Below, one piece after another: positions 36,701 through 64,000 of a DNA stretch of 64,000 nt. The stretch lies in contig JAGYJW010000003.1 in NCBI GenBank assembly GCA_018401435.1, forward strand, positions 124,001-188,000, in the 5' to 3' direction. Position numbers and translations under genes: made by a program. The notes below the pieces were generated by a model. It did no database searches, was not told the origin of the DNA, and saw only the letters and a list, made by a program, of their open reading frames with translations. This DNA comes from Deltaproteobacteria bacterium (GTDB lineage Bacteria; Myxococcota_A; UBA796; UBA2385). Numbering within the stretch: position 1 is the stretch's first letter; every line of letters starts with the position of its first letter.

Positions 36701-36768
36701 CGCCAGCGGTAGATGGCAGCTTCACCGACGAGGGCGCGGCCTATATCCTCTTCGGCAATTCCTACTGA
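33739..36768 (+). CDS. Lipoprotein with MopE metal-binding repeats and seven FG-GAP repeats
   Basis: This 1,009-residue protein has a lipoprotein signal (lipobox LVAC). The start ATG 33739 follows GAGAGG. From about residue 25 to 560 it has seven full putative metal-binding units of the MopE type (DxDxDGxG followed by NPxAxExCxGxDxDCDG), plus partial ones, each with an Asp-rich loop and a Cys pair. From about 570 to the end are seven FG-GAP-like units such as GDLDGDEIPDFAIGAPG and GDINDDGYADILVGAPG. That number makes a closed seven-blade integrin-alpha-type beta-propeller with Ca-binding loops. It is presumably a surface-exposed adhesin or sensor. It is convergent with the large minus-strand cluster. 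Confidence 0.9.
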   Translation: MRLLLATALLVACGDPAPPRPDLGALDGDGDGYANRYDCNDDDPTIHPGADEYCDGIDNDCDSRVDEDAVGAPRWYPDLDRDGWGDATGGGSFPVACEAPGDGHYASRKGDCDDQDAGVNPAAMEICGDRVDNDCDGLESEEDANTDPASFGTWYLDMDGDGWGQGDVALRGCRRPAYDEPLDTADPDFDEAYPPGWVGVARDCDDSDRRTYPGAGFRENSPIVAAACVRDADEDGFGDATALDPITRGTDCNDNAPWIFLTSRVDVEICDGADSNCNGGPAPEERDEDGDGYVGCDLAVDIGAWLGSSTIVGGGDCDDTDPLKNPAAAEICNFLDDDCDGLVDESDAVDQTTWYEDGDGDGYGNAAVLVQSCSQPPGFVDLDVTGFYDCDDSNAAISPAAYERCATVGIDDDCDGQVDESDALGASTWYQDFDADGFGNPGVSAAACTQPTGFVSSATDCNDLVGAINPSAVETCNGIDDDCDGAIDAADSNVVGDIWYADVDGDGYGSPTGLTRACGQPTAYVGNSDDCDDGAADINPDATEVCRDYADNDCDGSANQCSLEVQISLSAVDGAQHGASSGAAAGSALNGMPDQDGDGLRELLVGVPGDSTGGTEAGALWLTFGALSTSFDATLPDVIYTGSTVGYRAGASMVGASNLAGGATADLAIGSCPGSSAADTRGAVHFFFDIFAAVDESLDDADLALVGQSSSDLFGCSMALGGDYNGDTAVDLIIGAPGSSAGMGGFWVLSGPVSATTTLSTSGVRILGVTTSDAAGSVVAANQDVDGDGSVDILLGAAGAGGTKGRGYVVLGPVTTAGQLSSLGIGLLGQSNGDAAGTGVAFGDINDDGYADILVGAPGRDDAGVDSGTAYLVYGPVTADRTLLLADARFDGSGAGAMAGQSVANAGDLDGDEIPDFAIGAPGATINGVAGGGAYLLLSSQSFSGTYGLATGATGRLSGITAGDAAGSAVVGLGDLTGDGFGDLGIGAPAVDGSFTDEGAAYILFGNSY

Positions 36769-36849: not shown

Positions 36850-37803
36850 TCAGGCGGCGAGGTCCTTGGCCACCGCGTCGATGCTCTTGAGCAGCGGGGC
36901 CTGGACCTCTCCGGCGCCATAGGGGCTGACGTCGATGTGGGCCAGCACCTTGCTGCCGGCCACGAAGGTGCGGAAGCTGCGCGCGGCGTCCAGGGCGTCC
37001 TGGCGGGCGGCCTCTTCGGCCTGCTGCCGCTTCTCGGCGTCCTGGATGTTGCCGGCGTTGGTGATGGCGTCCAGGGCGTCTTCGAGGTCTTCGGACAAGG
37101 CGGAGAGGGCGCTCTTGACGCCGTTGGCCGTCTTGATCTCCTCGGGGAAGTCCGTGAGGATGGCCTTGGCCAGGGTGTCCAACACCTTCTGGGCGCGGTT
37201 GCGGGATTGGACCCAGGCGAGGCGGGCCTGGGTGGCCTTGATCTTCTTGCCCTTGGGCTTCTCGCTGTCCAGATCGCCCAGGAAGTCCAAGCCGCCCATG
37301 CCGTCCAGGGCCGACAGGTCGCCCAGCTCATCGCTGCTGAGGCCGGTCAGGGCCGTGGCGGTGCCCGGACTGGAGCTGCCGAGGCCGTCGAGACCGTCGA
37401 GACCGTCGAGACCGTCGAGACCGTCGAGACCATCCATTCCATCGAGGCCCTCTGTGGGGCTCTCCGGCGTGGTGCTGACCGGCCCGTCCTCGACCTCGAT
37501 GGTGCTGGCTTCGACGATGAGCGGCTGCAGGGGCAGGTCCAGCTCATTCTTGACCCGACGGATGAGATCGCTGTTCAAGGGCATGGTGCCCTTGCGCTTG
37601 GTGATGGTGAAGGTGGTATTTCCGGCGGAGAATTCCCAGCTGCCGGCAATGGCCGAACCCCGCACCGCCTGCACCAGGGACTTCAGGCGGGGCACGTCCT
37701 TGGGGGGGTAGATCTCCACCGACCAGCTCGACCCGTCCTTGCCCACGACGAAGCCGCCGCCCCGCGACTTGAGGTTCTTGTACTCTTCCTTGGCGTTGCC
37801 CAT
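36850..37803 (-). CDS. Gly-Leu-Asp repeat protein, last gene of the large cluster
   Basis: This 317-residue soluble protein has no signal or membrane helix. Residues 1-100 form a small alpha/beta domain (RGGGFVVGKDGSSWSVEIYPP, WEFSAGNTTFTITKR, LPLQPLIVEAST). Residues about 120-145 are tandem Gly-Leu-Asp triplets from a 9-base repeat. A GLSSDELGDLSALDGMGGLDF segment follows, then a helical, coiled-coil-like C-terminus (about 200-317). ATG 37803 has AGGAG six bases upstream. The gap of 108 bases to the upstream gene is the longest in the cluster, so it may have its own promoter. It is probably cytoplasmic. Family not recognised. Confidence 0.75.
   Translation of the reverse strand: MGNAKEEYKNLKSRGGGFVVGKDGSSWSVEIYPPKDVPRLKSLVQAVRGSAIAGSWEFSAGNTTFTITKRKGTMPLNSDLIRRVKNELDLPLQPLIVEASTIEVEDGPVSTTPESPTEGLDGMDGLDGLDGLDGLDGLDGLGSSSPGTATALTGLSSDELGDLSALDGMGGLDFLGDLDSEKPKGKKIKATQARLAWVQSRNRAQKVLDTLAKAILTDFPEEIKTANGVKSALSALSEDLEDALDAITNAGNIQDAEKRQQAEEAARQDALDAARSFRTFVAGSKVLAHIDVSPYGAGEVQAPLLKSIDAVAKDLAA
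37387..37431 (-). repeat. Five perfect copies of a 9-base tandem repeat
   Basis: GTCGAGACC is repeated five times without error, plus partial units on either side. It keeps the frame and encodes Gly-Leu-Asp, so copy-number change would alter protein length without breaking the gene. Confidence 0.85.
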
Positions 37804-37911
37804 GGAGATCTCCTGCGGTGGGTTGGAGGCCAGTGGTGGCTGCGGGTGGCCCTTAGCCCGACCGATTGGCTGCGGCGAGTCAACGCGCGTCCAGGTGCGG
37901 GCTGTCTGCAG

Positions 37912-39552
37912 TCAGGGTGCGAGGGATTCGCCCCCTCCCTCTTCGACCTGCGCCAGGCGGGTAGCGGCAGAGAATGCAGCCTGGGCGCCCTTTTCCATGG
38001 CGTCGGGTGCCCAGGGGCAGCTGGGGCTGGGCCGCAGCTTGAGGGTGGTGACGCCTGTGGCCACATCCACCAGGTCCGGCAGGATGGGGTCGCCCTTCTG
38101 GCCGGCAGGTGCGTTGGCTGCGTACTCGGTGATCAGCTGGTTCACGCAATATGCGGCGGGCTCGTTGAGCACCCCGTCAGCCATGCTGGGCAGCCGGTTG
38201 ATGGCGGCGAAGAGGGCCAGCGACCAGGCCTGGCTCTGGCTGGGGAGCACCGAGGGGCGCCCCTCCATCTCGAAGTCCAGCAGCGCCTCTTGCACGGCCC
38301 GCAGGCCATTGGCCAGGGTGTCGGCGCTCCAGCGATCGTTCATGCGGGGGTCGCTCATCAGCTCGGCGATGGCCCCCCCCTTGGGCGCGTTGGCCAGGGC
38401 GGGTTCGGGTCGGCCGAACTCCGCGGAGATCCGCGGCGACAGGCCCCAGCGACCGGCCAGGGTGAGCCCATCCATCAAGCCCACATAAGACAGGGGGCAG
38501 GCCAGCTCGGGGTCGGGGTGCCAGAGCATGGCGTAACGCGGCAGATCCTCGCCCAGCACCGGATCCTGGTCCAGGCAGGGGTTGGCGTCCTCGGCGCGGG
38601 GGGCGGGCATGGAGCCCATCAGGCTGACCACATAGCGCTTCATGTGGTCTACGGCGGCGACGTCGAGGGCCATCAAGGCGTCCGCGCGCATGCGGGCGCC
38701 CGCCACGTCGATGGCGGCCGAGCGGGCGTCGGTCACATCCAGGACGTTTTCGGCCAGCAGCAGCCGCTGTTCGTCGATGGCGCCGAGCTTCTCCACCAGC
38801 TTCTGGCGTTCGGACAGGCAGGCCATCTCCCCCAGCAAGGAGGCCTCTCGGGCCGCGTCGGCCCGGGCCACGGCCTCTTCGGCGGCCTCAGCCCGGCCCT
38901 CGGCCTCGGCCTTGGCCTTGTATTGCATATAGAAGCCGATGCCTGCCGCGACGCTCAAGCCCACGAAGATGAAGAGGTACTGCATCGTCTTGGCGTCGAT
39001 GCCGAGCCGCTTTCCGATGGCCCGGATATTGCCCATGACGAACTGCTGCTGGTCCATATAGACGGTCCAGAGCGTCGGCACGAGCCACAGGGCTCCCTTC
39101 TCTTGGATGCGGCCCTTCTTGAGGGTGGTGCCGCTGCCGGCGATGGCGGCACCCATGGTGGCCGCCCCCGCCGACGCCCGCCGCAGGCTGAAGCGGAAGC
39201 GCCGCAAGGTGGGCAGGGCCACCTCGTAGTCCCCCGACGGGGGCAGGGCCGCGCCTGCGGTCAGCTCCCTCCAGTTGTCGGCGTCTTGCAGGAAGACCGT
39301 CAGCTCGGGCCCGATGCGCCGCACCCGCGTCGTGACGCGGTTGGCGCCCATCACCTGCACATCCACCCAGAGCACCAGCATGGCGCCGGCGGGCGGGTCT
39401 TCGCCGGCCCGACGCAGCACGGTGTTGCGAAGCGGTCCGGCCCCCTCCAACGCGTCGGGAAGCAGCCACACCAGGAAGTCCTGGCCCTCCAGGGGCAGGC
39501 TCACCCGGGGCGGGCGGCCCTCGGCTTCGATGCAGGTGATCGTCTCGTTCAT
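37912..39552 (-). CDS. Single-helix membrane protein of unknown function
   Basis: This 546-residue protein has a cytoplasmic N-terminal part of about 185 residues with beta strands (LPLEGQDFLVWLLPDAL and MLVLWVDVQVMG). One membrane helix follows (about 191-211, YLFIFVGLSVAAGIGFYM), then a long charged coiled coil (about 214-250, AEAEGRAEAAEEAVARADA). The periplasmic domain has four or five cysteines (ANPCLDQD, ELACPLS, SPSCPW). The start ATG 39552 is 25 bases after the stop of the upstream gene. The coiled coil next to the membrane suggests an oligomeric stalk. No family was recognised. Confidence 0.75.
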   Translation of the reverse strand: MNETITCIEAEGRPPRVSLPLEGQDFLVWLLPDALEGAGPLRNTVLRRAGEDPPAGAMLVLWVDVQVMGANRVTTRVRRIGPELTVFLQDADNWRELTAGAALPPSGDYEVALPTLRRFRFSLRRASAGAATMGAAIAGSGTTLKKGRIQEKGALWLVPTLWTVYMDQQQFVMGNIRAIGKRLGIDAKTMQYLFIFVGLSVAAGIGFYMQYKAKAEAEGRAEAAEEAVARADAAREASLLGEMACLSERQKLVEKLGAIDEQRLLLAENVLDVTDARSAAIDVAGARMRADALMALDVAAVDHMKRYVVSLMGSMPAPRAEDANPCLDQDPVLGEDLPRYAMLWHPDPELACPLSYVGLMDGLTLAGRWGLSPRISAEFGRPEPALANAPKGGAIAELMSDPRMNDRWSADTLANGLRAVQEALLDFEMEGRPSVLPSQSQAWSLALFAAINRLPSMADGVLNEPAAYCVNQLITEYAANAPAGQKGDPILPDLVDVATGVTTLKLRPSPSCPWAPDAMEKGAQAAFSAATRLAQVEEGGGESLAP

Positions 39553-39577
39553 GAAGGGCGGGGCTCTCTTCTTGGAG

Positions 39578-42500
39578 TCAGGGGGCGGCCGGCAGGGTGG
39601 GCCCCTGGGACTTGATGCGCAGGTTCACCCGCACGCCGGCCAGCACCGTCCAGGCGTGGTCCAGGACCTCGTGCCCGACGGCGGGTTCGGAGAAGGGCAG
39701 GGGAGTGGCCAATTGCCCCCGCACATAGGGCCCGACCAGCAGGGCGGGGTGGTAGGGGGTGAAGCTCTGGTGGGCGGAGCGGATGCGCCGGATGGAGCGC
39801 CCCATCCAGGCCTCGGTGACAAAGGTGGTCTCGAGGCCGCTGAAGCCGGGCCCGAAGAGCACGCCGCCGCGCAGCCCCCACTGGGTGCGTCCCACCTTGT
39901 TGCCGCCTTCGGGGCGCTGGGGTCCCCAGGTGTTGCCGTCGCGGCCGTGGCGCCACAAGCTGGTGGGGCGGGGGGCGAAGCGAAGCCCGAACAAGGCGCC
40001 GCCGGCCCAACGGAAGGTCCAGGCATAGCTGGGATCGTTGGGGTAGAGCGCGCTCTGGCCGCGGGGCACCACGTCGAGGCGGCCTTCCAGGCCCGACTCG
40101 AAGGCCATGCGCGGCCGGTGCATCAGCCACCAAGTGTACATGCCGCCCAGGTCGATGCCGACGCCCTGGGAGAAGTAGCTGGGGGTGCTGTTGAGGTCGC
40201 CGGTGGCCGCCAGCTTGTTGGCGCAGGAGGCCACGGTGTCGAAGGTGGTGGGGTCGTCGGTGCAGGTGGTCTGCACATGGCGGTAGGGGAAGCTGGCCAC
40301 CGAGGTCATCAGCGTCCAGTCGCCGGGGCGACGGGGCTTCCAGCGGGGCACCGGGTGGGCGGCGTTGGTGGCCAGATCGGTCTCGCGCCAGCCGGGCCCG
40401 ACCGACGCGACGGGCGCGCCGGCTTCGGGGGGGACCCACAAGGTCCAGCTGGCGGTGCGCACCTCGACCGGATCGCCCGCGCTGTGGCGGTGCCGGCGCT
40501 TATAGGGCGTTCGCGGCCGAAAACCATCCCCCACCGGCCGGTTGTCTGCGGCCAGGTCGTGGTCGAAGACCATCAGCAGCAGGCCGCCGTTCTCCTTGGA
40601 CAGGCCGCGCAGCTTGGGGTGCACGATGCTGTGCAGATAGGCGGCGGTCTCTCCCGGGCTGAGCTCTTTGAGGCGCTTGGATTCGAGGATGGACACCCGG
40701 TTGCGCGTCTCGATCTGGGCGGCGGCGCCTTGCACGTCGCGGCCCCGGAGTACGCCCACGCCCTCGGTCTTCACCGCGGTCACATCCGTCTGGGCGGACT
40801 TGGCGGCCATCGCGCCGCCCGTCACGCTATTCGCCAGGCGGCTGCCCAGATCCGAGGTGCCTTCGATGGTGCCTTCCAAGCGCAGGTTGCGCTTGGCTTC
40901 GCGGCGTTCGGCCCGGGGCAGGTCCGTCCAACGGAAGGGCTCGGTGGGGAAGAGCTCGCCCGCCAGCAGGCCCCCCCGCACGACGGTGGGGACGAGATCA
41001 CGCTGGGTGAGCACCATATCGTCGCAGATGGCGGCGGTGCGCACCGCGAGGCGGGTGCGGCCATCGCCCAGGTCCTGGGGGGACCACAGCAGGTGCCAGC
41101 CGCTCCAGAGCCGCCAGCGCAGGCGGTACAAGGAGTCGGGGCCGGGCAGGTCGCTCAGTCGGGTGACCGTGGGAACCGCGGCCTCGGGGTCGTCTACGGC
41201 AAGAAAGGGCGCTTGCCCCCGCGCCGCCCACAGCACGTCTGCCGGGCTGATATCGGCGCCATCGCCACGGGGACCGGGGTCGGGGCCTTGCACCACCAGG
41301 TCCAGGGTCACCGGCTTGAAGGACAGCTCGCTGAGGGCGGCGCGGCCGGACTCCCGGGTGCAGATGGCCAGCGGGTCCACCGACTGCAGGCCCTGGGGAA
41401 CGCGAGAGGTGGTCTTGCCGTGGGTGGCCAGCACCTTGGCGAACTGGACCTGGCCCACGGCGCTCACCGCGGCGGGGGGCTGCTCGGCGCCGCCCTGGGC
41501 GCGCAGGTTGGTCGCGATGGCGTCGTCGATGTGGTCCAGCAGGATCCAGGTCTCGTAGGCGTCGCGGTCTTCGATGGACAGGCCGTTGAGCACCGCGCCC
41601 AGGGTGACCGCGTGTGCATCGGCAAAGACAAAGGGCCGCAGGCGGCTCTTCTGGGTGACCGCGCGGTTGATGAAATCGTCCACATCGGCGCTGCGGAGCC
41701 CGTTCAGGCGCTCTTTGGGGTCGAGGCCCAACGGCCCGATGACCTCGTCGTTGCGCAGGCGATCCTCGGCGTCGGAGCGGATCTCGTCGGCGCTGCTGCG
41801 CAGCCGGGGCTTGTCGGTGGCGGTGCTCTCCAGCGCTTCGGCCACCACGCGGTTGAGCCAGTCGGCGCGGACCTGGGGCGGCAGCAGGCGCAGGCGCAGG
41901 GCGACACCGCCCGAGACGCCCCCGATGTCGCGCTGGGCCGAGAAGCCGAGCTGCTCGTCGCTGTCGGTCTCGCCGCGGGCCGCGGCCACGAGGCCCCGGT
42001 AGCGGCCCTGGCCCATCGCGTCGGCGTCGGGGGGGCTGCGTTGGGCCGTCAGCGCGGTGAGGATGCGCATCTGGTTGTCGGTGTGGTCGCGCAGGGCGTA
42101 GCGGGCCACCGATACCCCGATCAGCCGGCTATACTCTTCGAAGCCCTGGCTGGCCCGCAGCTCGAATTCCGCCACATCCCCGTCGTCGAGCAAGATGGGG
42201 CGCTGGGTGTCGCCGCCGGGCAGGTCGTCGAGGTTCTTGGCGCCAAGGATCTGCCCGGGATCCTGGAAGCGGGCCAGGGGGCGGATGGCGGTGGGCCGAT
42301 CCGCCCGGCGCTCGGTGTTGTAGGGGAACATCTGCTCGAAGAAGGGCCCGGAGCTGTCCTCGTCCCCGTCCATGATCTCAAAGGGGAAGGCCTTGCTGTT
42401 GAAGCCCAGGCGCTCTGCAAAACGCCCCTTGAGCAGCGCCATCTCGGGCAGGTCGGGCAGGGTGGGCCGCTGCGGGTCCGGGCTGCCCGCCGCCGGCACG

Positions 42501-43257
42501 GGGTGGAATTCGACCAGCGGGAAGAAGGGGTCGGCCCGGGGCGTGTCGCGGTCCTCCACCCAGGTCGCCGCCGCCAGCAGGCTGTCCTCGTGGGGCAAGG
42601 AGATCAGGCGGCGGTCGGTGGGGTGGGCCTGCTTCCAGGTCTTGCTGGGCTGGGGCAGCGCTTGCACCGCGCTGCTGGCCAGGATGGTGGTGGCGATGGG
42701 GTCGTCGTCTCGGAACCAGCGGCTGGCGATGCCATCCAGCTCCCAAAGGTAGAGCTCGGCCGTGTTCTTCATCAGGGCCTTCCAGGCCTCGCCCAGATCG
42801 CCGGCCGGGGTGAGGCCCGAAAAGGCCATGGGCAGGGGCGCAAAACGCACGCGCTCGGTGCATTGACCCCGGCGCGCCAACAGCAGGTTGCAGTCTGCGT
42901 TCTCGCCGGAAACGGACGCGCTGTCCGTGTTTTCGGCAAGGTAGGGGTCGAGGAAGGACACGGTGCGAATGGCGGGGCTGGGCAGGCGCGCGGCCCGGGG
43001 CAGGGGCTCTTCGGCCTGGGCGGCTGCGACCTCGGGGCCGCTGGGGCCTTCGGCAACGTCGCCGCCCGCCGGCGCAGGCGCCTCTGCGTCGGCGCCCTGC
43101 CGTCGGGCGCTTCTGCTGCGGGCTCGTCGGGCGCAGGCGCGTCCTGGGCGCCCACCGCCGACAGGGCCAGGGCGCAGGCCAGCAGGCTGCTGGTCCGAAG
43201 CAGACGAAGGCCCAGCGGGGCGGCGCGGTGCAGGTGCAGGGGGGAGGGGCTGCGCAT
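39578..43257 (-). CDS. Large secreted protein with beta-barrel-like C-terminus (one apparent frameshift)
   Basis: ATG 43257 shares one base with the upstream TGA. A signal peptide follows (LLRTSSLLACALALSAVGA). Near 43110 coding sense shifts frame; adding one G in the run AGGGC continues as GADAEAPAPAGGDVAEG and gives about 1,226 residues. From about 43090 to the stop the frame is open and protein-like throughout. The large middle (about residues 70-900) has no known motif. The last 300 residues have repeated aromatic, Gly-rich amphipathic strands (GIDLGGMYTWWLMHRPRMAF, RWAGGALFGLRFAP, WGLRGGVLFGPGF, AWTVLAGVRVNLRIK), which suggests an outer-membrane barrel. The last residue is Pro, not aromatic. 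Confidence 0.7.
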
Positions 43258-46200
43258 CAAAGCTCGCGAATCCTCTTGAGGTAGCGGAGGTCCTCGACAT
43301 GTCGGCGGAGCTCGGCCATCAGGTCCATCGCTTCGGGTTCGCGGAGGGTGAGCTGGCGGAGGATCTCCAGCAGCTCTCCTTCGGCGAGCTGGCTCACGGT
43401 CGCGCTTCTGTCTTCATGGCGTCTTCCGACCTGGGTGGCGTGCCGGACCGCAGCGCTGCGGGTCGAATCGCTCCCTCGCGCAGCGTACCGCTCGGCGGTT
43501 GAAGTTTCGCCCTCGGGTGGGGTGAAGAAGCCATCGGCGCCCTGCCCCGGACCCAGTCCGGGGGCCTGCCAGCTGCGCGGAGCCTGCGCTCCCCCTGCCG
43601 ATCCTGGCGTTGATTCGGGGGCCTGCCAGGAGAGGTTGGAGGCGCCTGGCCGAGAGGTTCTGGCGGCGCGTCGGCGAGCCGCCGCTGAGGGGGTGACGGT
43701 GCGCGCGCGGTCCGAGCCCCGAGGGCCTGGCGCCACTGGCGCTCCTGTCGCCGCCCCTCGGCCGAGGTCAGAAAGCGGCTGCAGCACGGTGGGCGGGGCC
43801 GCCGGGCCGCGCTGGCGGCGGCGCGCTGCAGGTCGCGGCGCAGCTGCAAGCGCTCCATCGAGCGGCGCAGGCTGGGCCCGCCGCCACCCAGGCCGGGGCT
43901 GCCCGGTGGTCGGCTAACCGCGCCGCGGGGGCGCGGGGGCGGACCGCCGCGGCGGAATCTGGCGCCGTCCACCGGCAGGCCGGTGGCCTAATTGCGCGGT
44001 GAAGCTGGCGTTGGTCGAGGTTCTCGGAAAGCGCCCGGCCCTGTTCCCGGCGCAGCGCTGCGCGGCGGGACGCGCGGGCGTCCCGGGTGCTGGAGCAGGC
44101 GGCTGTGGGCGGCGAGCCCCGGCCCTTTGAGGGTGGCGGGCGCGGGCTGTATTGCCCGAGAGGGGGCGGCCAAAGCCGAGCTTGCGCTCGGCGATGCGCG
44201 CGAGGCTGCGGCGCAAGGCGGCGCCGCCGTCGGTCCGAGCGCCTGCGGCCTCGCTGCCGGAAGCAGGGATGGCGCGGGGCGAAGCTGGGGCGGAGACTGC
44301 CGGGCTGCCGGTGCGGGTCGTCTCGGCCGGGTCCACCCAACCCTGGTCCGTCCAGTCGAATTTGCCAGGGCGAACGGGCAGTTTGACCGGTGCTCGGGTG
44401 GGACTGCGGGAGTCTGCCGCCGCAGCTCCGGGCGCCTGCGTGGCCTTGGGCTTCACGCTGTGGCGAACGGCGGGGGCGCGCCCGCTCTCACGGCGCTCGG
44501 TGGACTCGCGGCGCTATGCGGGCCTCGGTCTTCGCGGCTGGCCAGGCGCGGCGGCGGCCTGCACCGCGCAGCTCGATCTTGCGGTGGACCAGCTCCTTTC
44601 GGTGCTCTTGAACCAGGGTGCGCTGCACCGCACGGACCGATGCCCGGGAGCCGGTGCCTTCGGCTGCGTGCACCTTGCGCATCACCTTGGCGATGGCGGC
44701 GCCGCTGCGTCGGCGGCCCTGCCGCATCGGGTCGATGCCGGCCCGCGCGCTGGGACCGGCGCTGGACCCGCGAAGGGCGCGGACCACCCGAAGTCCAACC
44801 AAGCCCACCGGGCCGGTCGCCGGGGTGGGGTTCTGCGGGCTGCCGCCGCGGCGTGCTCCAGCTCACGGGCTGCTGGGTGCCGGCGCGGGCGCGCGCCCGA
44901 CGGGAATCTTGCGGACGACATCTTCCAGAATGCGCGCCTGGCACTCATCCTGACGCTTTTCGCGGCCGGACTGGCGGGCCCGCCCAGGGCGGTCGCCCCG
45001 TCGCCTGGGTCGGACTTGGGGGGAAAGAAGGGGCGACGCTGTGCTTCGGGCTGCCGCAGCTCGCGAACGCCGGGATCTTCCAGCCAGGTGAGGGGGGCGG
45101 CAGGGGTCGTGAAGCGACGGAAGCCCGCCCGCGGCCCGGAGGGCACCGGCGCGCCACCTGGGCTGCCCGGTCGGCGCAAGGCCTCCAGGGCAGGGCGGGG
45201 TCGCTGTCGAGGGGCCGGGCGCCGGGCCGGTCCAGTCCGGTCCCGCCGCCCGCCGAACCCGGGCGGCTGCGCTCGCTGCGGCCAAGGGGGAGTCGCCGCG
45301 GAGATCGAAGGGCGGGGGCGCGCTGTCGCGGGTGGGGGTCGGGCTGCCCCTCCGCGCCCGGGGGCTGCGCTCCAGGGGCGACCGCTCCGGTGGTGCCGCT
45401 TCGGCGCCGGGGTCGGTCCAGCGGCGCTGCTGGGGGGCCACGGGCCCGGCCTCCGGCCGCCAGGGTCGGCTGATCCCTTGCAGCTGGGGGCCGCGTAGGG
45501 CCCGCGCAGGGCGCCCCCTTCGACCGGGGCGGTGTGGGGTCGGTCGGGCGGCCGCTGCGGGTCGGGGCTTCGGGTGCGGGGGCTGCACCGGAGGCGCTGC
45601 GGTGGAAGGGTGGCCGCTTGACCGGGGCCTGGGGCTCGCCCCGAGGGCGGGCGGGCAGCGGGGGCAGCTCCATGCGGCGGTGGGTCGCGGTGGCATCGGA
45701 GGGCGGGGCCATGCCGGGCCCGCTCTCCAGGTAGAGGGCGCGCACGGGCGACCAGCCGCCCAACGATGCGCGGGCGGCTTGCCGCCGCCCGGATCGGTCC
45801 CGGTCCCCAGCCCGACGGGCGCGCGCGCCGCCGCCGTCGGGGGTGGAGGCCGGCGAGAAGGCCGCGGAAAGGGGGCTGGCCGGCGCGAGGCCGGGGGGCA
45901 GGGGCCCCAGCGGACGCAGGCCCACATGCCCCGGGGCAGGCGGGGTCGGCTGCGGCTGGCTGCGCTGGTCCCGGTGAGGCTGTCGGAAGGCCTCGGGGAG
46001 GGCTCACCTGGCGGCCGGGCCCGGCGGGGGGCCGCCTTGGCGACGGCGACCGGGCAGCGCCTCTTCGGCGGCGGCCCAGGCGGCGGCCTCCCGGAAGGGA
46101 GGGCGCGGGCGGCGCAGGCCCATGGCCGGGCTGCTGCGCCCCAGGTCCGGCCTCTGCGCTGCGGGGCACCCGCGGGCCCCCACTCGCGCAAGGCCCGCTC

Positions 46201-48026: not shown

Positions 48027-48027
48027 C

Positions 48028-54743: not shown

Positions 54744-57700
54744 CTACGCTCGCGCCGTCGGGCAAGCACCGCGGCCACCCAGAGGAAGACCACCAGAGCC
54801 GCGCTTCGGCCCTTCTGATCGGGGGCCGACGCTACCGCACAGCCGCCTCCTTCGCACGGAGAGGCGGAGCTGCAGCCGGCACCCTGACCCACGAAGCATG
54901 CCGCACAGGCTGGATCTGCGCAGTCGATGCTGCCGTCACAGTTGTTGTCGAGACCATCCAAGCAGGTGGTGCAATCGGCGGGGCCGTCGGCGTCGAGCTG
55001 ACCCAGCAGGTCGCCGGGGCCCTCTGCCCGATCCCGGTTGGTCAGCGTGTCGGCGTCGTCGCAGTCGCCGCCCACCTCGCGGCCGATCTCGTCGGGGCCG
55101 CTGGTGGGATCGCCCCAACACCAGGCCACGGTGCCAGCGGTGTAGGCCCGGGCCTCGAAGCGCAGCAGCTCATTCCACTGGCTGCGGCCCAGGGCGTCGC
55201 TGGTGTCCACCATGACGGTCCAGCTGTCCAGCAGGGGGGTGTCGTCGCCCACCAGCGCGCAGGTGCGGCCGAATATGCGCAGGCACTCGTATTCGACCAC
55301 GGCCTCGCGGGATTGCAGGATGCGCTGCCGGGTCCAGGTGGACCGGGCGATGAGCTGGGCGTCGTTGGTGGCCTCTCCGCACTCGCCTTCGCGGTGGTAG
55401 ATGTAGCTGTCCCACAGCCCATCATCGGCGTTGGACTTCAGCTCTATGGCCACGATGCCGCAGGTGCCGCTGCCGTCGGTGCAGGCGTCGAGCAGCATGG
55501 AGGCGTCCCCCGCGCAGAGGGCCTCCCCCAGCCGATCTTCGCCCACCATGCCCGCCAGCGTGTCGTAGAGCAGCTCGTCGCAGGCGTAGACCTGCAGGCG
55601 GGTGTCGCCGCCATGGTCGCTGCATTCGATGACGAGGCGGTCCAGGGCGCTGCTCTCGGGCGGCCAGATCCGTTTGCCGTCCTCGTCGAAGCGCATGTCG
55701 AAGGTGCGGGGCAGTAGCAGGGGCACGAGGTCGCCCGCGCCGGCGGACACCGCGTTGTTGCCGGTGTCACCGGAGTCCCGGGCCGCTGTGTCGGCGACGC
55801 CGGAGTCCCGCCGGCCCGAGTCGGTGGGCAGGCCGGAGTCCACGGTGCCCGCGCCCGGCTCGGTGGCCTTGACCCAGCTGACCAGCAGGATGTCCTCGGG
55901 CATCTCGTCGCCCAGGGGGGCCGACCAGGCGCCGCAGCTGCGCTGGTCGTCGGCGTCGCGATCCGTGCCTTCCACCTCGCCCCCGCAGAGGTCGAGGAAG
56001 CCGTTGCAACGCTCCTCGGCGGCGGGGTTGCTCAGGGAGCAGAGGTTGTTGCAGTCGCCATGCAGGCCCTCGTCCAAGATCGCCTTGTCGCAGGACGCGG
56101 CGCTGATCTGCACCTGCAGGTCGAGGGTGGAGAAGCTGTCACAGGCCAGGAAGCCGTCCTGGTCCACGTCCAGCTCGTCCACCGACACCGTGCCGGCGAC
56201 GGGCTCCGCGCTGACCATGGACTCGGGCAGGCCGTCGCCATCGGCGCCTTCGAGGGCCACGGCGCTGTTGCTGCAGTCGTTGTCCAGGCCATCGCAGACC
56301 TCATCCAGATCGGGGCAACGGGACGGGCACTGGTCGTCACAGTCGCCGGCGGTGCGGCAGGCGCGGGTGGTGTAGACCCGTCGCCCACCCTGGTAGCGGC
56401 CGGCCCAGTTGTCGTCGCTGCCGTCCAGGCGCAGCATCCACAGGCCGGTGCCCACGGGGGGGGCGGTGGCGTCTTGGGGGTTGGGGGCCAGGTCGCAGAC
56501 CACCTGGATCTCGTCCTCTCCCCAGCACTCGATCAAGCGGGTCTCGCCCTGGCGGCAGTCGGCCAGCCCCACATCCGCTGCGGTGGCGGTGGTGCTGAGC
56601 TGAATGGGCAGCAGGGGCAGCGAGCCGTCGTCGTCGCAGTCCAGCTCGATGGCGGGGACGCGCCCGTCGCAGTCGTTGTCGTGGCCGTCCACGTATTCGA
56701 GCGCGACTTCGACGGCGTCGCCCCACTCATCCAGGCCGGCCTGGCAGTCGGGGTCATCGTCGTCGGTGGTGTTGTCGCCGTCGTTGTCCCGTCCGTCGCG
56801 GCAGCTCAGGGGGCGGGTGTCGCTGTTGAAGTCATCGCAGTCGCCGCCGGTGGTGACATAGCGATCGTCACGGTAGAACGCGCCTTCTCCGTCAGATCCC
56901 GTCAGACAGAGGCAGAGGGTCTCGGCGTAGTCGCCATAGCCGTCCTCGTCCGCGTCCCGGTACATGTCCACGCAGCCCGACACCGTGGAGTCCAGGTCCA
57001 CGGCCTCGTCCACCTCGTCGTCGCAGTCGTCGTCCTGCTCGTTGCAGACCTCAATCGCGCCGGGGTGCTTGGACGGGTCGCTGTCGTTGCAGTCGCCGCC
57101 ATTGCTGGAGAAGCCGACGCCCAGCTCGCAGACCACATAGACCACGAAGCTGCCGTCTTCGTTGGGGTCGGTGGTGCCGTAGCCGTCGCCGTCGCCGTCC
57201 ACATAGGCGCTGATGGCGCCATCGGCGTTCTCGTCCACGGGCGCGCCCCGGTAGGTGTTGGGGCTGCCATCGCAGTCATTGTCGATCTGGGTGCCAGTCT
57301 CGCAGACTTCGGGGGCGTCGGGGTAGACCGAGGCCAGGGTGTCGTCGCAGTCCGTGCCCGCCCGCACGCCGTCGGCCGGGTCGATGTCGCCGTAGCGGTC
57401 GCCGTCGGCGTCGGTCAAGCAGGCCGATGCCAGGGCCCCGGCCTCCAGGTAGCTGTTGGGGCTCAGGCCAAAGCCGGCCCGGTAGGGCGGGTGGGTGCCC
57501 GGGTCCGTGTCGTCGCAATCGAAGCAGTTGGGGTTGCCCACCGGGCACTTGAGCAGGGGGTCGGGCAAGGCCGAAATGGAGGGGTTCCAGGTCACGCTGG
57601 CGAAGCGCACGCACTCGATGAAGTAGTCGCCGTCGTCGTCGTACTCGTCTTCGGGTTGGCTGCTGTCGTCATAGGCGGGGTCGTCACAGTCGTTGTACTG

Positions 57701-60700
57701 CCCGTCGCACTTCTCGGGTGCCGAGGGGAAGACGGTCCGGTCGCCGTCGTCGCAGTCGTTGCCGCCCAGGATGCTGGAGAGCCCCTGCCAGGTGCCCGAG
57801 TTGTAGTTGCATTCGACATAGCGGTCGCCGTCGATGTCCCGCTCGTCATCCGGCGCGATCTGCACCGCGATTAGCGGGTCGCTGCAGTCGTTGAAGCGCC
57901 CGTCGCACTGCTCGGGAGCCAGGGGGTAGACCTTGTTGTCGCTGCCGTCGCAGTCGTCCCCACCCAGCACCGTGCTTGCGCCCACCCAGGTGGTGGCGCT
58001 CCAGCCGCTGCATTCGACATAGCGGTCGGCGTCGGTGTCCTGCTCGTCCGGCGGCGCGCTGGTGGTGCCGAAGAGCGTGTCGTTGCAGTTGTTGAATTGC
58101 CCGTCACACAGCTCCGGGGCGCCCGGATAGACGCTGGCCCGCGTGTCGTCGCAATCCAAGCCGGTATAGGGCAGGGTGGCGGGCACATCCCAGGTGGTGC
58201 TGCCGTCGTAGCACTCGACATAGCCGTCGCCGTCGTTGTCGGTCTCGTTGGCCGGCGCCGCTGCCGTGCCGCCGCGGCCATCGCAGTCGTTGAAGGTGCC
58301 GTCGCAGACCTCGGGCGCGGTGGGGTAGCTGGTGGGGTCCCGCGGCTCGCAGTCTTCGCCCACGTTGATGGTGCCCGTGCCCTGCCAGGCCACCGTTCCA
58401 TCAAAGCCGCAGGCGACGTAGCGGTCGTTGTCGAGGTCGATCTCGTCGGTGGGGATGCCCGAGGTGATGCGGTTGCAGTCGTTGCGGGCACCGTCGCAAA
58501 CTTCGGGAGCGCCGGGGTAGGTGTTGATGTCGGCGTCGTTGCAGTCGGTGGCGTTGAGCACATAGCCGCTGCGGCTGCTGGAGCACTCCGTGCTGGAATC
58601 CCCGGCGTCGCCGTAGCCGTCCGTGTCGGCGTCGCGGAAGAAGGTCGTGCCACCGGACAAGGAGGGGTCGTTGGCGTCGGTCAGGCCGTCGCAGTCGTTG
58701 TCGATGCTGTCGCAGATCTCGATGGCGCCGGGGTTGATGGCCGTGGCGCCGTCGTTGCAGTCGGTGTTGCGGGAGCTCCAGCAGGCGGTGCTGGTCACCC
58801 CATCGGTGCAGCCGTTGGCCACCGATGGGTCGTTGCAACGGAAGGCCAGGGTGCCCGAGCCCGTGGACGAGGTGCCATAGCCGTCCTCGTCCACGTCGGC
58901 ATACCAGGTGAAGAGTGTGCCCTGGTCCACGCCGCTGTCGTCGTCGTCGGCCAGTCCGTTGCAATTCTCGTCGATGTCGGCGGCGTCGCAGATCTCGATT
59001 TCGGCCGGGTTTACCGCCGAGTTGCTGTCATTGCAGTCGGTATTGTCCGCAACATAGTTGGCGACCGCGTTGCAACGCTGGATGGGCGTGCCCGAGATGT
59101 TGCCGTATCCATCCGAGTCGGCGTCGTTGTAGAGGAAGATCCCCCCGCCGGTGGCCACGCTGTTGTCCACGGAGGTGTCGGCGTCGTCAATGGTGCCATC
59201 GCAGTCGTTGTCGACGCTGTCGCAGACCTCTTGCGCGGCGGGATTGATCAGAGGGGCTGCGTCGTTGCAGTCTGAATTATTCGTGACATAGCAGATGGTT
59301 GCGGTGTTGCTGTCGCTGCAGGCGCCCGAGGCCGACGGGTCCGAGCACTGGGCGATGGACGCGCCGCTGGAGGCGCTGCCATAGGTGTCCTCGTCGTTGT
59401 CCCGGTACCAGGTGTTGGTGGTCAGCCCCTCGTCCGTCGCGCCATCGCAGTCGTTGTCGATGCCATCGCAGGCCTCGGAAGCACCCGGATTGGCCGCCGC
59501 CACGGCGTCGTCGCAGTCGTTGCCCCGGCTGACATAGCCGCTGGGTTGCAGGCAGCGGGCCAGGGTGACGCTGTTGTTGCCGTAGCTGTCGTTGTCTACG
59601 TCCTGGTACCAGGTGGTGGTGCCGCTCAGCGGGCTGTCGGCGTCGTCGGCCAGGCCGTCGCAGTCGTTGTCCACACCGCCGTCGCAGGTCTCGGTTGCGT
59701 TGGGACGGATGTTGGGGTCGCCGTCGTCGCAGTCGGTGCCGGCCACGGCGGTGGCCGAGGAGGGCGTGGTGGAGCCCCAGCCATCGCCGTCCACATCGGT
59801 CATGCAGGCGGTGGTGGAGTCGTTGGTCGCGATGCCCGGCCGCGTGGCGGCGCTGCTGTCGTCGCAGTCGCTGTTGTTGGTGACGTAGTTGGTGGGCTGG
59901 CTGCAGGCCAGGGAGCGCACCGAGGGGTTGCCGTAGCCGTCGCCGTCCAGATCCCGGTAGTAGGAGGTCTGCACGCCGTCATCGACCACGCCGTCGCAGT
60001 CGTTGTCCACCAGGTCGCAGGCCTCGGTGGCCCCCGGGTGAATGGCGAAGCCCGTGCTAGCGTTGTCGTCGCAATCCGAGCCGGCCGTGACGCCGGTGGC
60101 GGGGTTGGCGCTGCCATAGCCGTCGCCGTCGAGATCCGTCATGCAGGCAGTGGACGAGTCGTTGAATGCGATGCCCGGATGGGTCAACGCCTGCGTGTCG
60201 TCGCAATCGGTCTGGCTGCGCACATAGCCGGTGGGCTGGGTGCACTGCTGGATGCCGGTGCCCGCCTTGCCGTAGCCGTCGCCGTCCCCATCGAAGAACC
60301 AGGTGATGAGCACGCCATCGTCCACCGTGCCGTCGCAGTCGTTGTCTACGCCGTCGCAGACCTCGGTGGCGCCGGGGTTGGTGGAGCTGTCGCTGTCCAG
60401 GCAGTCGGTGCCCGCCGTGCCGCCGGAGGGCGCCGTTGTCGCGCCGTAGCCATCGTTGTCGTCGTCGGCCATGCAGGCCGTGCTGCTGTCGTATTGGGCG
60501 GTTCCCGGGAAGGTCGAGGCGACCGCGTCGTCGCAGTCGGAGCCGGCCGTGGCGCCGCTGCGGGGCGATGTGGACCCGTAGCCGTCGTTGTCCCCATCCG
60601 TCATGCAGGTGGTGGTGGACTGCCGTTCGGCCGCGCCGGGGAAGGTGTCGGCGAAGCTGTCGTTGCAGTCGCCTGGGTAGATCCCGTAGCCGGTGGGCTG

Positions 60701-62599
60701 AGTGCAGCCGGTGGTGCTGCTGGCGGTCAGGCCATAGCCATCGCCGTCGCCGTCCAGGTAGTAGGTGCCCCGGACGCCCTCGTCGATGGTGAGGTCGCAG
60801 TCGTTGTCGACGCTGTCGCAGATCTCGGTGGCGCCGGGGTGGGTGGTGACCACCCCGTCGTCGCAGTCCGTGCCCGCCACGCCGCCGGAGGGCGCGGTCG
60901 TCGAGCCATAGCCGTCGTTGTCGGCGTCCCGCATGCAGGCGGTGGTGGAGTCGTTGTTGGCGGCGCCGCGGAAGGTGAAGATGTCGCTGTCGTTGCAGTC
61001 GCCCGTGCTCAGCACGAAGCCGGTTGGGGGAGTGCAGGCGCTCTGCCGGTTGGTGCTGCCTGTGGCGGTCGTGCCCTGCCCGTCGCCGTCGGCGTCCCGG
61101 TAGTAGGTGGTGGTGACCCCCTCGTCGATGAGGCCGTCGCAGTCGTTGTCGATGCTGTCGCAGGTCTCGGTGGCGCCCGGGTTGCGGGTGGCATCGCTGT
61201 CGGCGCAGTCCGTGCCCGCCGACCCGCCGCTGGGGGCGGTGCTGTCGCCGTAGCCATCCGAGTCGTCGTCGTTCATGCACGCGGTGCTGGACTCGTTGAA
61301 GGCAGCGCCGCGGTAGGTGCGGTTGTTGCTGTCGTCGCAGTCGCCGCTTGGGGCCGATTCAGTGGCTTCTCCGCTGTCGGTGCAGTCGGTGTCGGCGCTG
61401 AGCACCGTGCCGGAGTTGGGCCGATGGCCATCGCCGTCCACGTCGATGTAGCAGAGCTCCTGGCTATCGCAGTTCTGGTCGATCTGGTCGCCGACGATCT
61501 CGGTGGCAGCAGGGTTCCGACTGCTGTCGTTGTCGTCGCAGTCGGTGGTGGGGTCGGTGCTGGTGCCCTCGAAGGTGTCGTTGCAGTCGGTGTCCACCGA
61601 CACCCGGGTGTCGCCGCTGGTGTCGAGGTAGCCGTCGTTGTCGGCGTCGTCGTAGCAGGTCTCCAGGCCGTCGCAGTTCTGGTCCACACCGTCGCCGACG
61701 ATCTCCGTCGCGCCTGGCTTGATGGCGCTGTTGCTGTCGTTGCAGTCGGTGTTGGTGGTGCGGTAGCAGGTGTTGGTGGTGGCACCATCGCTGCAGGTGA
61801 CCGTGGGGTTGTCGCAGAACAGGCTGCCCGACGAGCTGGAATCGCCGAAGGTGTCTTCGTCAAAATCGAGGTAGTAGCGGGTCTTACCAGAGGCGAGTGT
61901 GCTGCTGTCGAGGTCATCTGCGAGGCCGTCACAGTCCTCGTCCGTATTGCTGGCGTCGCAGATCTCTACTGCGCCGGGGTTGATGGCCGCCGCCGCGTCG
62001 TTGCAGTCCTGGCCCACCGAAGGCTGTGTGCCCACCACATCCCAGGTGGTCGAGCCGTCATAGCACTCGACATAGGTGTCGCCGTCGTTGTCGACCTCGT
62101 TGACGGGCAGGGTGGCCGTGTTGCAGTCGTTGATCTGCCCGTCGCAGATCTCGGTGGCGCCCGGGTAGATGGTGTTTTCGGCGTCGTCGCAGTCAAAGCT
62201 GGTGATGCTGCTGAGGGCGCCGGTTCCGCTCTCCATGCGGTAGCTGCCCTGCATGACCGTGTTGGCGTTGCCTGGGGCCGGCGTCGCCGTGGTCGGGTAC
62301 TCGAAACAGCAGATGTGGGCGCTGTCGCCGTAGAGGTCGGCGTCGCCGTCCCAGATGGCGGTGAAGACGCTGTTGGTCCCCACGCTTGGCGTGCAGGCGG
62401 TGGCGCCGTTGTAGACGCCGTTGACGTTGGCGCCGCCGGTGCCCGTGGTCTTGAGCACGCTGCTGGTGCAGTCCGAGGCCACGGTGGCCCCCACCTTCAC
62501 CGCGACCACCACCCCAAGCAGGGCGGCGGTGAGGGCAGCGGCGATGCGCTTGCGCTGGCTTTGGCGTCGGGGGGCTTCGGGCCTCAGCTTGGGGCTCAT
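54740..62599 (-). CDS. Giant MopE-repeat surface protein with MYXO-CTERM-like anchor
   Basis: This 2,619-residue protein starts at ATG 62599 (the second of two ATGs), with GGAGG six bases upstream. A basic N-terminus and membrane helix (about residues 16-36, IAAALTAALLGVVVAV) form the export signal. From about 40 to 2000 there are roughly two dozen MopE-type metal-binding units (DxDxDGYG, CxxPTGY, DCxD, NPGATExCDxxDNDCDG), each with Asp-rich loops and Cys pairs. A Cys-containing region and a DSG-rich linker (about 2270-2300) follow, then a tail with GGGCAVAS, a hydrophobic stretch and RRRERR. That end resembles the MYXO-CTERM sorting signal cleaved by myxosortase, which implies surface anchoring. 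Probably a metal-binding adhesin or scaffold. Confidence 0.9.
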   Translation of the reverse strand: MSPKLRPEAPRRQSQRKRIAAALTAALLGVVVAVKVGATVASDCTSSVLKTTGTGGANVNGVYNGATACTPSVGTNSVFTAIWDGDADLYGDSAHICCFEYPTTATPAPGNANTVMQGSYRMESGTGALSSITSFDCDDAENTIYPGATEICDGQINDCNTATLPVNEVDNDGDTYVECYDGSTTWDVVGTQPSVGQDCNDAAAAINPGAVEICDASNTDEDCDGLADDLDSSTLASGKTRYYLDFDEDTFGDSSSSGSLFCDNPTVTCSDGATTNTCYRTTNTDCNDSNSAIKPGATEIVGDGVDQNCDGLETCYDDADNDGYLDTSGDTRVSVDTDCNDTFEGTSTDPTTDCDDNDSSRNPAATEIVGDQIDQNCDSQELCYIDVDGDGHRPNSGTVLSADTDCTDSGEATESAPSGDCDDSNNRTYRGAAFNESSTACMNDDDSDGYGDSTAPSGGSAGTDCADSDATRNPGATETCDSIDNDCDGLIDEGVTTTYYRDADGDGQGTTATGSTNRQSACTPPTGFVLSTGDCNDSDIFTFRGAANNDSTTACMRDADNDGYGSTTAPSGGVAGTDCDDGVVTTHPGATEICDSVDNDCDLTIDEGVRGTYYLDGDGDGYGLTASSTTGCTQPTGYGIYPGDCNDSFADTFPGAAERQSTTTCMTDGDNDGYGSTSPRSGATAGSDCDDAVASTFPGTAQYDSSTACMADDDNDGYGATTAPSGGTAGTDCLDSDSSTNPGATEVCDGVDNDCDGTVDDGVLITWFFDGDGDGYGKAGTGIQQCTQPTGYVRSQTDCDDTQALTHPGIAFNDSSTACMTDLDGDGYGSANPATGVTAGSDCDDNASTGFAIHPGATEACDLVDNDCDGVVDDGVQTSYYRDLDGDGYGNPSVRSLACSQPTNYVTNNSDCDDSSAATRPGIATNDSTTACMTDVDGDGWGSTTPSSATAVAGTDCDDGDPNIRPNATETCDGGVDNDCDGLADDADSPLSGTTTWYQDVDNDSYGNNSVTLARCLQPSGYVSRGNDCDDAVAAANPGASEACDGIDNDCDGATDEGLTTNTWYRDNDEDTYGSASSGASIAQCSDPSASGACSDSNTATICYVTNNSDCNDAAPLINPAAQEVCDSVDNDCDGTIDDADTSVDNSVATGGGIFLYNDADSDGYGNISGTPIQRCNAVANYVADNTDCNDSNSAVNPAEIEICDAADIDENCNGLADDDDSGVDQGTLFTWYADVDEDGYGTSSTGSGTLAFRCNDPSVANGCTDGVTSTACWSSRNTDCNDGATAINPGAIEICDSIDNDCDGLTDANDPSLSGGTTFFRDADTDGYGDAGDSSTECSSSRSGYVLNATDCNDADINTYPGAPEVCDGARNDCNRITSGIPTDEIDLDNDRYVACGFDGTVAWQGTGTINVGEDCEPRDPTSYPTAPEVCDGTFNDCDGRGGTAAAPANETDNDGDGYVECYDGSTTWDVPATLPYTGLDCDDTRASVYPGAPELCDGQFNNCNDTLFGTTSAPPDEQDTDADRYVECSGWSATTWVGASTVLGGDDCDGSDNKVYPLAPEQCDGRFNDCSDPLIAVQIAPDDERDIDGDRYVECNYNSGTWQGLSSILGGNDCDDGDRTVFPSAPEKCDGQYNDCDDPAYDDSSQPEDEYDDDGDYFIECVRFASVTWNPSISALPDPLLKCPVGNPNCFDCDDTDPGTHPPYRAGFGLSPNSYLEAGALASACLTDADGDRYGDIDPADGVRAGTDCDDTLASVYPDAPEVCETGTQIDNDCDGSPNTYRGAPVDENADGAISAYVDGDGDGYGTTDPNEDGSFVVYVVCELGVGFSSNGGDCNDSDPSKHPGAIEVCNEQDDDCDDEVDEAVDLDSTVSGCVDMYRDADEDGYGDYAETLCLCLTGSDGEGAFYRDDRYVTTGGDCDDFNSDTRPLSCRDGRDNDGDNTTDDDDPDCQAGLDEWGDAVEVALEYVDGHDNDCDGRVPAIELDCDDDGSLPLLPIQLSTTATAADVGLADCRQGETRLIECWGEDEIQVVCDLAPNPQDATAPPVGTGLWMLRLDGSDDNWAGRYQGGRRVYTTRACRTAGDCDDQCPSRCPDLDEVCDGLDNDCSNSAVALEGADGDGLPESMVSAEPVAGTVSVDELDVDQDGFLACDSFSTLDLQVQISAASCDKAILDEGLHGDCNNLCSLSNPAAEERCNGFLDLCGGEVEGTDRDADDQRSCGAWSAPLGDEMPEDILLVSWVKATEPGAGTVDSGLPTDSGRRDSGVADTAARDSGDTGNNAVSAGAGDLVPLLLPRTFDMRFDEDGKRIWPPESSALDRLVIECSDHGGDTRLQVYACDELLYDTLAGMVGEDRLGEALCAGDASMLLDACTDGSGTCGIVAIELKSNADDGLWDSYIYHREGECGEATNDAQLIARSTWTRQRILQSREAVVEYECLRIFGRTCALVGDDTPLLDSWTVMVDTSDALGRSQWNELLRFEARAYTAGTVAWCWGDPTSGPDEIGREVGGDCDDADTLTNRDRAEGPGDLLGQLDADGPADCTTCLDGLDNNCDGSIDCADPACAACFVGQGAGCSSASPCEGGGCAVASAPDQKGRSAALVVFLWVAAVLARRRERR

Positions 62600-64000
62600 C
62601 ATCTTCCTCCGGGCACGACCACCTGGACCAGGCACTGGCGGCGGAGCAGCTCAATTTGCTCCCACTCCAACCAGTCCCATTCTGCTACGGACTCGCCCGG
62701 GGTGGGAACCATGATCGGCTCGTCCGTCTTGTCGTCGATGGGGCGTCGAACGAGGTCAATGACAGCATTGGCGGGCAGGTCGGCCCCATCCACGGGCATC
62801 GAAGATGTGACAGGATGGTACGGCAGCGGCATGGGGACACCGGCCGCTTCACGGGGCGGAATTCGTGCGGTGGACAGCCAGGTGCGCAGGCCGGCACCCT
62901 CGATGCGGTCCACCCAGATGCCCTTTCCTTTGGCCTGGGGACCCAGGGGGCCCACAGGCACCCACACGTCCCGCTTGCTGTTCTGGAGCAGGGGAGGACG
63001 GCTGTTGTTGGCGAAGCCCTGCTTGTAGGCCGTGCGCACTTCGAGGGGCAGCAGGCCGATGTCGAGCTGCAGCATCAGCTCGCGCCCGGTGTCGGGCAGG
63101 ATGTCCCGCAACCGCGTGGGCCCCGAGGCAAAGACCACATCCCGGGTGGGGCGGGCAAAGGTCAGGCGGCTGACGTGGCGGCCATACCAGACCCAGGCGC
63201 ACAGGCGGCTGGCGCGCTCTTTGGCCAGCCGGGCCGCCTCCTTGACGCGCTCGTCCTTGCTGCCGGCCCAGGAGCCCAACACCTCGTGTACGAAGGCCAG
63301 GGCCTGGGACACGGTGAGCACATCGGGCAGGTCGATGGTGCCCAGCACCACCCAGCGCTCCTGGCCGCTGATGCGGGGATCCTCGTCCATGGGGGCGCCG
63401 CAGTCCCAGGACATCGTGTCCTGGCGCTCCAGCCCGTTGAGCACGTCCAGCTCGGCCGTGAACAGGGACACCACGGTGAAGCGCAGGCTGCGTTCGGCCG
63501 GGCTGAAGCCCTGCTGGCAGCGCACACACCACTCGCCCGGAAGGAAGACCTTGTCTTTGCTATAGGTCTGGGCGCAGGGCTCTCCCCACAGCGTGGGGTT
63601 CTTGCAGGCCTGGATCTGGGCGAGGGTGGGGGCCGGGGTGCCCGCCGCTCCTGCCGAGCCCGCCGCGGCCGCCAGCCGCAGCAGCTCATCGACCTGGTGG
63701 GGCACGCGGGTGCGGCGGATGCGGCGCTCGCGCAGGCCCAAGGCCCCCATCACGCCCAGCGCGGCCATCAGCAGCCACTGAAAGACGCTGAGGTGCCCAT
63801 TCCAGGTTGGCAGGATGACGGTGCCCTGCAGATAGGCGTTGCCCGGGACCGCCCGCGTCTGGCAGGCGGTGTGGCCCAGGCTGTCATCGACCAGATCCAC
63901 CAGCTCGACCAGGTTGCCTGCCAGCGCGTCGGTGCAGAGATTCCCGAATCCCAAGCGCACCACCGGCCCCATGCCCGCCAGGGCGCCCAGCGCAAGCAGG
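62599..64000 (-). CDS. Membrane protein with two helices, start beyond the window
   Basis: The frame is open to the window edge; at least 467 residues are visible and the true start lies outside. The first visible residues (LLALGALAG) are part of a membrane helix. A second helix lies about 65 residues further on (VFQWLLMAALGVMGALGL). A basic segment (RERRIRRTR) follows, so the rest is probably cytoplasmic. A CxxC pair (GEWCVRCQQ), FTVVSLFTAELDVLNGL and WVVLGTIDLPDVL suggest a folded domain of about 350 residues. The stop overlaps the start of the giant repeat gene (ATGATGA). Family not recognised. Confidence 0.75.
   Translation of the reverse strand, partial: LLALGALAGMGPVVRLGFGNLCTDALAGNLVELVDLVDDSLGHTACQTRAVPGNAYLQGTVILPTWNGHLSVFQWLLMAALGVMGALGLRERRIRRTRVPHQVDELLRLAAAAGSAGAAGTPAPTLAQIQACKNPTLWGEPCAQTYSKDKVFLPGEWCVRCQQGFSPAERSLRFTVVSLFTAELDVLNGLERQDTMSWDCGAPMDEDPRISGQERWVVLGTIDLPDVLTVSQALAFVHEVLGSWAGSKDERVKEAARLAKERASRLCAWVWYGRHVSRLTFARPTRDVVFASGPTRLRDILPDTGRELMLQLDIGLLPLEVRTAYKQGFANNSRPPLLQNSKRDVWVPVGPLGPQAKGKGIWVDRIEGAGLRTWLSTARIPPREAAGVPMPLPYHPVTSSMPVDGADLPANAVIDLVRRPIDDKTDEPIMVPTPGESVAEWDWLEWEQIELLRRQCLVQVVVPGGR

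Follow-up and report, generated by a model that had tools for sequence, protein, structure and literature searches.

The DNA analysed here (the window) is a 64,000-nucleotide slice of a 249 kb contig from the draft genome of a deltaproteobacterium assigned to the Myxococcota. One end of it is occupied by a run of genes on the minus strand (Table 1), joined by 4-base start/stop overlaps at 62599-62602, 54740-54743, 51522-51525 and 49717-49720, by a 1-base gap at 48026/48028 and by an overlap at 43257-43260, with gaps of 25 and 108 bases thereafter. Both the run and its junctions, as described in an earlier sequence-only reading, were confirmed when the window sequence was re-read. That reading had counted nine genes; they are indeed contiguous and on the same strand, but the first (c8) is cut by the window edge and the run begins further upstream. 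As a single set the nine hold together only in part: their order is co-conserved in relatives, but for the ninth gene, which encodes a Gly-Leu-Asp repeat protein, none of the relatives has a linked ortholog, and it was rejected as part of the module. Converging on the end of the run is a plus-strand gene (33739-36768) for a second, shorter MopE-repeat protein of 1009 amino acids with a lipoprotein-like start, a relative of which lies in the equivalent convergent position beside c0 in genomes G002, G008 and G003. Two ORFs at 20046-21376 on the minus strand resemble an IS3-type transposase pair and lie in a patch of lower G+C content (64.7%).

Table 1. Genes of the envelope module and their neighbours, in window coordinates
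Gene or product	Position	Strand	Description
c8	62599-64000 in the window; whole gene 62599-64263 on the contig	-	inner-membrane protein
Giant MopE-repeat protein	54740-62602	-	PF11617; slot between c8 and c9
c9	51522-54743	-	one-helix protein with Cys-rich periplasmic part
c5	49717-51525	-	polytopic inner-membrane protein
c6	48028-49720	-	lipoprotein; frameshifted near 48430-48450
Pro/Ala/Ser/Arg-rich giant	43257-48026	-	several frames here; single ORF in relatives
c2	39578-43260	-	secreted, C-terminal barrel; frameshift near 43.1 kb
c0	37912-39552	-	one helix and coiled coil
Gly-Leu-Asp repeat protein	36850-37803	-	last gene of the run as first counted; membership doubtful
c3	27509-28480	-	about 10 kb downstream of the run here; between c2 and c0 in other families

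Beyond the window edge, immediately upstream of c8, the same strand carries fourteen more genes (64282-77904) that belong to a contractile injection system (CIS). They encode a Phage_base_V spike, the sheath, three gp19 tubes, a gp41-like product, a DUF6760 product, an unnamed conserved protein, a CIS_tube protein, a spike/hub, gp25, a protein of baseplate size, and the products of c17 and c18, two small conserved genes on the baseplate side of c8. The best matches of the sheath are contractile sheaths of the Afp3/Pvc2/tCIS type (E 1e-53 to 1e-27), and sheath, tube, spike and baseplate genes stand together in one cluster, the combination by which the extracellular CIS (eCIS) lineage is recognised; by its gene content, the CIS itself is a member of that known lineage. 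With these genes in view, what had been described as the run turns out to be the latter half of a CIS locus, and the earlier opinion that no known apparatus was involved has to be abandoned. An AAA ATPase gene (Afp15-type) belongs to or adjoins the clusters of G017, G021, G026 and G031 and lies near the spike gene of G002; the 91 kb examined in the window's genome (G000) did not show one. In the window c3 is preceded, at a distance of 28 bases, by an EF-G-like gene (28509-30596); it is also missing from between c2 and c0 in G002, G005 and G008, which belong to the same family as the window's genome. From its position only, c3 may encode a tail-terminator-like (Afp16-type) protein; a profile search against solved structures in the PDB gave no match. 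A prophage was rejected, there being no capsid or terminase gene among the neighbours scanned, and so was a gliding, pilus or type IX apparatus, for which family matches are absent while the linkage to the CIS accounts for the locus.

Three neighbouring genes within 43-48.5 kb, where G+C content reaches 79%, are broken by frameshifts. The lipoprotein gene c6, one ORF in relatives, is here divided into ORFs at 49720-48428 and 48450-48028; the Pro-rich gene, which in relatives forms one ORF of 738-1726 aa, is spread over several frames; and the frameshift in c2 lies in the linker behind the signal peptide. All three disruptions are likely to be assembly errors. Because the Pro-rich gene is frame-broken in the assembly, its protein cannot be read directly in the window, and a 3.3 kb Pro-rich ORF (48026-44682) was rejected as the true frame throughout, both by comparison with relatives and by frame-wise G+C content. 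The very long Pro-rich protein with a helix, as first described, therefore survives at its ends, where the start and the last ~45 residues match the architecture in relatives, but the remainder is unreadable here.

Transmembrane helices were called across homologs with a simple hydropathy script, and by this measure single-span and polytopic topologies recur among the homologs of the module proteins. The product of c8, which in relatives lies between the baseplate-side gene c18 and c9, was initially taken for a two-helix protein; the whole gene yields 3-4 predicted helices followed by a cytoplasmic domain with conserved Cys. The topology first proposed for c9 was upheld: a cytoplasmic domain of ~310 residues is followed by a helix at residues 313-331 and a periplasmic part of ~740 residues with many invariant Cys. 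Likewise c5 is polytopic as reported, but the hydropathy script gives 4-7 helices instead of eight, ahead of a conserved soluble C-terminal domain of ~200 residues. The assignment of c6 as a lipoprotein holds despite its frameshift; the protein has a signal peptide, a periplasmic domain, a C-terminal helix and a basic tail, and a lipobox is present in about half of the family, the window copy included. In c0, again in agreement with the first description, an N-terminal cytoplasmic domain precedes a helix at residues 189-207, a coiled coil and a Cys-containing periplasmic domain.

The uncharacterised status of these envelope proteins was borne out by profile searches. In Pfam and NCBIfam scans of the module proteins, MopE was the sole match over the curated cut-offs; weaker matches, to DUF5059 (ninth gene), Lambda_tail_I and YcaO (c9), LtrA (c0) and Bax1-I (c5), were set aside. 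Profiles of c0, c2, c3, c5, c8, c9 and c18 searched against solved structures returned only a chance match of RodZ to the c0 helix, and a structure model of c9 (mean pLDDT 53.9) had no fold match.

The c2 protein has a signal peptide (seen in relatives), a large periplasmic part and a C-terminal barrel encoded at about 39614-40324. The barrel-like end noticed at the outset appears in the structure model as eight long strands (residues 888-1124); in a fold comparison these come closest to the transmembrane domain of OmpA (E 5e-4, probability 1.00). Mean pLDDT of the model is 49.6 overall, and the confident parts of the c2 and c9 models are limited to the barrel strands and some helices. Together with the signal peptide, this predicts that the C-terminus of c2 forms an eight-stranded, OmpA-like beta-barrel in the outer membrane. 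In its relatives the Pro-rich giant is Pro/Ala/Ser/Arg-rich, with a Trp-rich N-terminus and a conserved C-terminal helix motif of ~45 residues.

The giant MopE-repeat protein has a signal peptide, 23 MopE stretches (PF11617, E=1.7e-140), a conserved C-terminal region of ~640 residues and a MYXO-CTERM-like tail consisting of a GC motif, a helix and RRR, which agrees with the surface-sorting tail first noted. The MYXO-CTERM tag sorts proteins to the surface; it is common in Myxococcota and has its own sorting protease (PMC11980579). With this protein included, the predicted topologies bear out the suggestion that cytoplasm, inner membrane, periplasm, outer membrane and surface are all represented. 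The C-terminal region (family A11) is conserved beyond the repeats, at 43-44% identity. Strong matches (E below 1e-40) were found in 11 of the 13 c0-positive genomes, the two others being incomplete drafts (72% and 85%), and in none of the other 50 genomes of the order; c0-negative genomes and G046 all scored at most about 35 bits. Fisher's exact test gives p about 1e-10 for this association, a value without phylogenetic correction that overstates the evidence because the genomes are related. The distribution nevertheless favours the earlier placing of the giant with the envelope complex.

Gene order at the locus is conserved as follows, parentheses marking genes absent from some clusters: CIS baseplate, c17, c18, c8, (MopE giant), c9, c5, c6, Pro-rich giant, c2, c3, (ATPase), c0. 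The stretch from the baseplate to c2 is found entire on a single contig in five genera, which belong to three families of one Myxococcota order (G000, G016/G041, G017, G021 and G031, the near-identical G016 and G041 being counted once). Split over contigs, the order is seen in G026, G002, G008 and G054, and in this form it is present in two more families. Proteins of these relatives are 27-49% identical to those of the window, and such identities combined with a kept gene order indicate old conservation. The gene-neighbourhood search that the sequence-only reading had proposed as a check thus reveals more co-conservation than chance would produce. Wherever the contig permits a check, the baseplate genes are joined in order to the module. 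Among the 63 genomes of the order c0 occurs in 13, and c9 and c5 in 12 each, c5 being found also in one further genome of the same class (379 genomes sampled from the phylum). A pattern scan for c8 across 84,980 species genomes located ten loci, every one of them in a record whose title gives uncultured Deltaproteobacteria, Proteobacteria or Myxococcota, and the genomes that carry the module are all uncultured and mostly MAGs. In G046 a strongly diverged module (c5, c6, c8 and c9, with lower scores) lies beside CIS genes at L059:877-8877 (minus strand), in a genome with no match to c0 and no giant C-terminal family. A DUF4280 (PAAR-like) gene (L032:6410-6802, minus strand) follows c0 in G043 and is itself followed by a TerB-FHA gene; a TerB-FHA gene follows c0 in G016 and G041 too.

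A second type of CIS in the same order provides an internal control. The CIS_tube family is present in 55 of the 63 genomes, mostly as one copy in a locus other than that of the module, and none of c0, c2, c5, c6, c8, c9, c17, c18 or the Pro-rich C-terminus was found at thirteen such other CIS loci. The window's own genome carries a second, different CIS (L057 and L058; G000:C172) without envelope-module genes. In a tree of spike proteins the two types fall on opposite sides of one branch (support 100/99); counted there as module type is L056, a sequence from a distant contig where the module genes found end with c8. The envelope proteins are therefore encoded beside one CIS type and conserved specifically with it, as would be expected of a cell-anchored system. 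The run is contiguous with sheath, tube, spike and baseplate genes of the eCIS lineage and, in the genomes compared, is conserved with that CIS type only.

These observations make it likely that the locus is a cell-anchored CIS and that the run supplies its envelope-anchoring half. By analogy with the systems compared below, the module probably anchors the CIS in the cell's own envelope for the injection of neighbouring cells. The baseplate would dock, via c17 and c18, on the cytoplasmic domains of c8, c5, c9 and c0; c9, c6 and c0 would form a disulphide-rich periplasmic scaffold, which the c2 barrel would tie to the outer membrane; and the MopE giant, sorted to the surface, could act as an adhesin, a sensor or a collar around the firing site. 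The Pro-rich giant occupies the slot of the tape measure in other eCIS loci and may, judging from this position only, set the length of the tail, which is the weakest step of the scheme. Contact with prey or a competitor would then make the sheath contract, and tube and spike would be driven out across the envelope of the producing cell and into its neighbour, in the manner of the type VI secretion system (T6SS).

Membrane genes near a CIS could instead serve lysis, regulation or assembly. Most eCIS leave the producing cell by lysis, and a sheath and tube of that lineage would sit well with an extracellular particle for whose exit the envelope genes provide a means of lysis, export or quality control. 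Myxococcota eCIS at a seamount have also been treated as released particles, although this was assumed there and not demonstrated (PMC11937823). However, the other CIS type of the order dispenses with these genes, which are thus not generally needed for release; Pfam and NCBIfam scans found no holin, endolysin or pore family among the module proteins; and lysis does not call for as many as six conserved envelope proteins, an outer-membrane barrel among them. We regard release as unlikely. Still less probable is an anchor that serves stress-triggered firing at the cell itself and not neighbour injection: eCIS-lineage systems with membrane partners do behave in this way in Anabaena (tCIS) and Streptomyces (CisA-dependent) (PMC8894136, PMC12237407), but they need only fibre or baseplate extensions or one membrane protein, whereas the co-occurrence here of periplasmic, outer-membrane and surface parts points outward.

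The sequence-only reading had taken the complex for an apparatus that builds or displays the giant MopE protein; with export added to these roles, and the linkage to a CIS regarded as incidental, this explanation must now be thought very doubtful: the giant's C-terminal family does track the module and the giant fills the c8-c9 slot in five genomes, but the slot is without it in five clusters (G016, G041, G017, G021 and G031), where CIS genes are always present, and MYXO-CTERM proteins are common in the phylum. Where it is outside the slot, the gene for the giant shares a contig with CIS genes in G016, G017 and G043, whereas G021 and G031 have it on other contigs. The giant makes better sense as an accessory of the CIS than as its purpose. 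In G026, a long-repeat lipoprotein starts behind c8 (L072:11156-12427, plus strand) and may begin the giant of that genome, where the contig breaks.

What makes phage-tail-like syringes change between release and use within the cell becomes a testable question here, because two CIS types, one with and one without the envelope module, occur in the same genomes. An anchored CIS at this locus would represent another solution for anchoring such a device across a two-membrane envelope, would give uncultured, possibly predatory Myxococcota a concrete candidate weapon, and would set in context one family among the MopE-repeat giants, which are poorly understood. The chances seem evenly balanced for the more specific proposal that a trans-envelope complex, made of Cys-rich single-span proteins and an OmpA-like barrel, evolved independently of TssJLM and TssNQOPR and turned an eCIS-type tail into a T6SS-like weapon, with the giant as contact sensor or docking collar.

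The sheath, gp19 tubes, CIS_tube protein, spike, gp25 and DUF6760 gene of the locus are homologous to those of the eCIS-lineage systems Afp, PVC, AlgoCIS and tCIS, but unlike these the locus adds a six-protein envelope module and two giants, without database relatives. Tails of this lineage work inside cells when anchored, as in the thylakoid CIS (PMC8894136), the haloarchaeal T6SS (PMC11566945) and the CisA-dependent Streptomyces CIS (PMC12237407). In the haloarchaeal system the tail stands on the cytoplasmic membrane, and its putative anchor is polytopic with a cytoplasmic domain, like c5; the system differs in being without an outer membrane or periplasmic complex (PMC11566945). T6SS subtype iv (Amoebophilus and Aureispira) also uses an eCIS-type tail from inside the cell, in a phylum other than that of the locus, and a large trans-envelope complex has been reported for Aureispira (as cited in PMC11566945). 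To our knowledge the envelope module has no earlier description in the literature searched; the main risk to its novelty is a possible homology with the Aureispira complex.

T6SS of subtypes i-iii would work in a similar way, with a polytopic inner-membrane hub, single-span periplasmic proteins, a lipoprotein and an outer-membrane link, but the tail of the locus is of the eCIS type and not TssBC. No window protein matches the TssJLM or TssNQOPR families in Pfam. The IcmF/TssM-type family PF06761 is absent from the 13 module genomes, with E. coli as positive control, TssJ and TssL having been sought among the window proteins only; PF17555 (TssN) gave nothing over cut-off in the nine module genomes scanned, TssQ, TssO, TssP and TssR being covered by the Pfam scan of window proteins only. 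A canonical T6SS was rejected, since TssM-type and TssN genes were not found over cut-off. The T6SS membrane complex of Bacteroidota (TssNQOPR) is assembled from a lipoprotein, single-span proteins of the periplasm and a polytopic hub, which are unrelated to TssJLM (PMC10781749). All these kinds of component recur in the module, which has in addition a surface giant and what is predicted to be an outer-membrane barrel. With eCIS-type tails known to work when anchored, and parts of the same kinds in Bacteroidota, the best reading of the locus is a trans-envelope anchor for contact-dependent injection.
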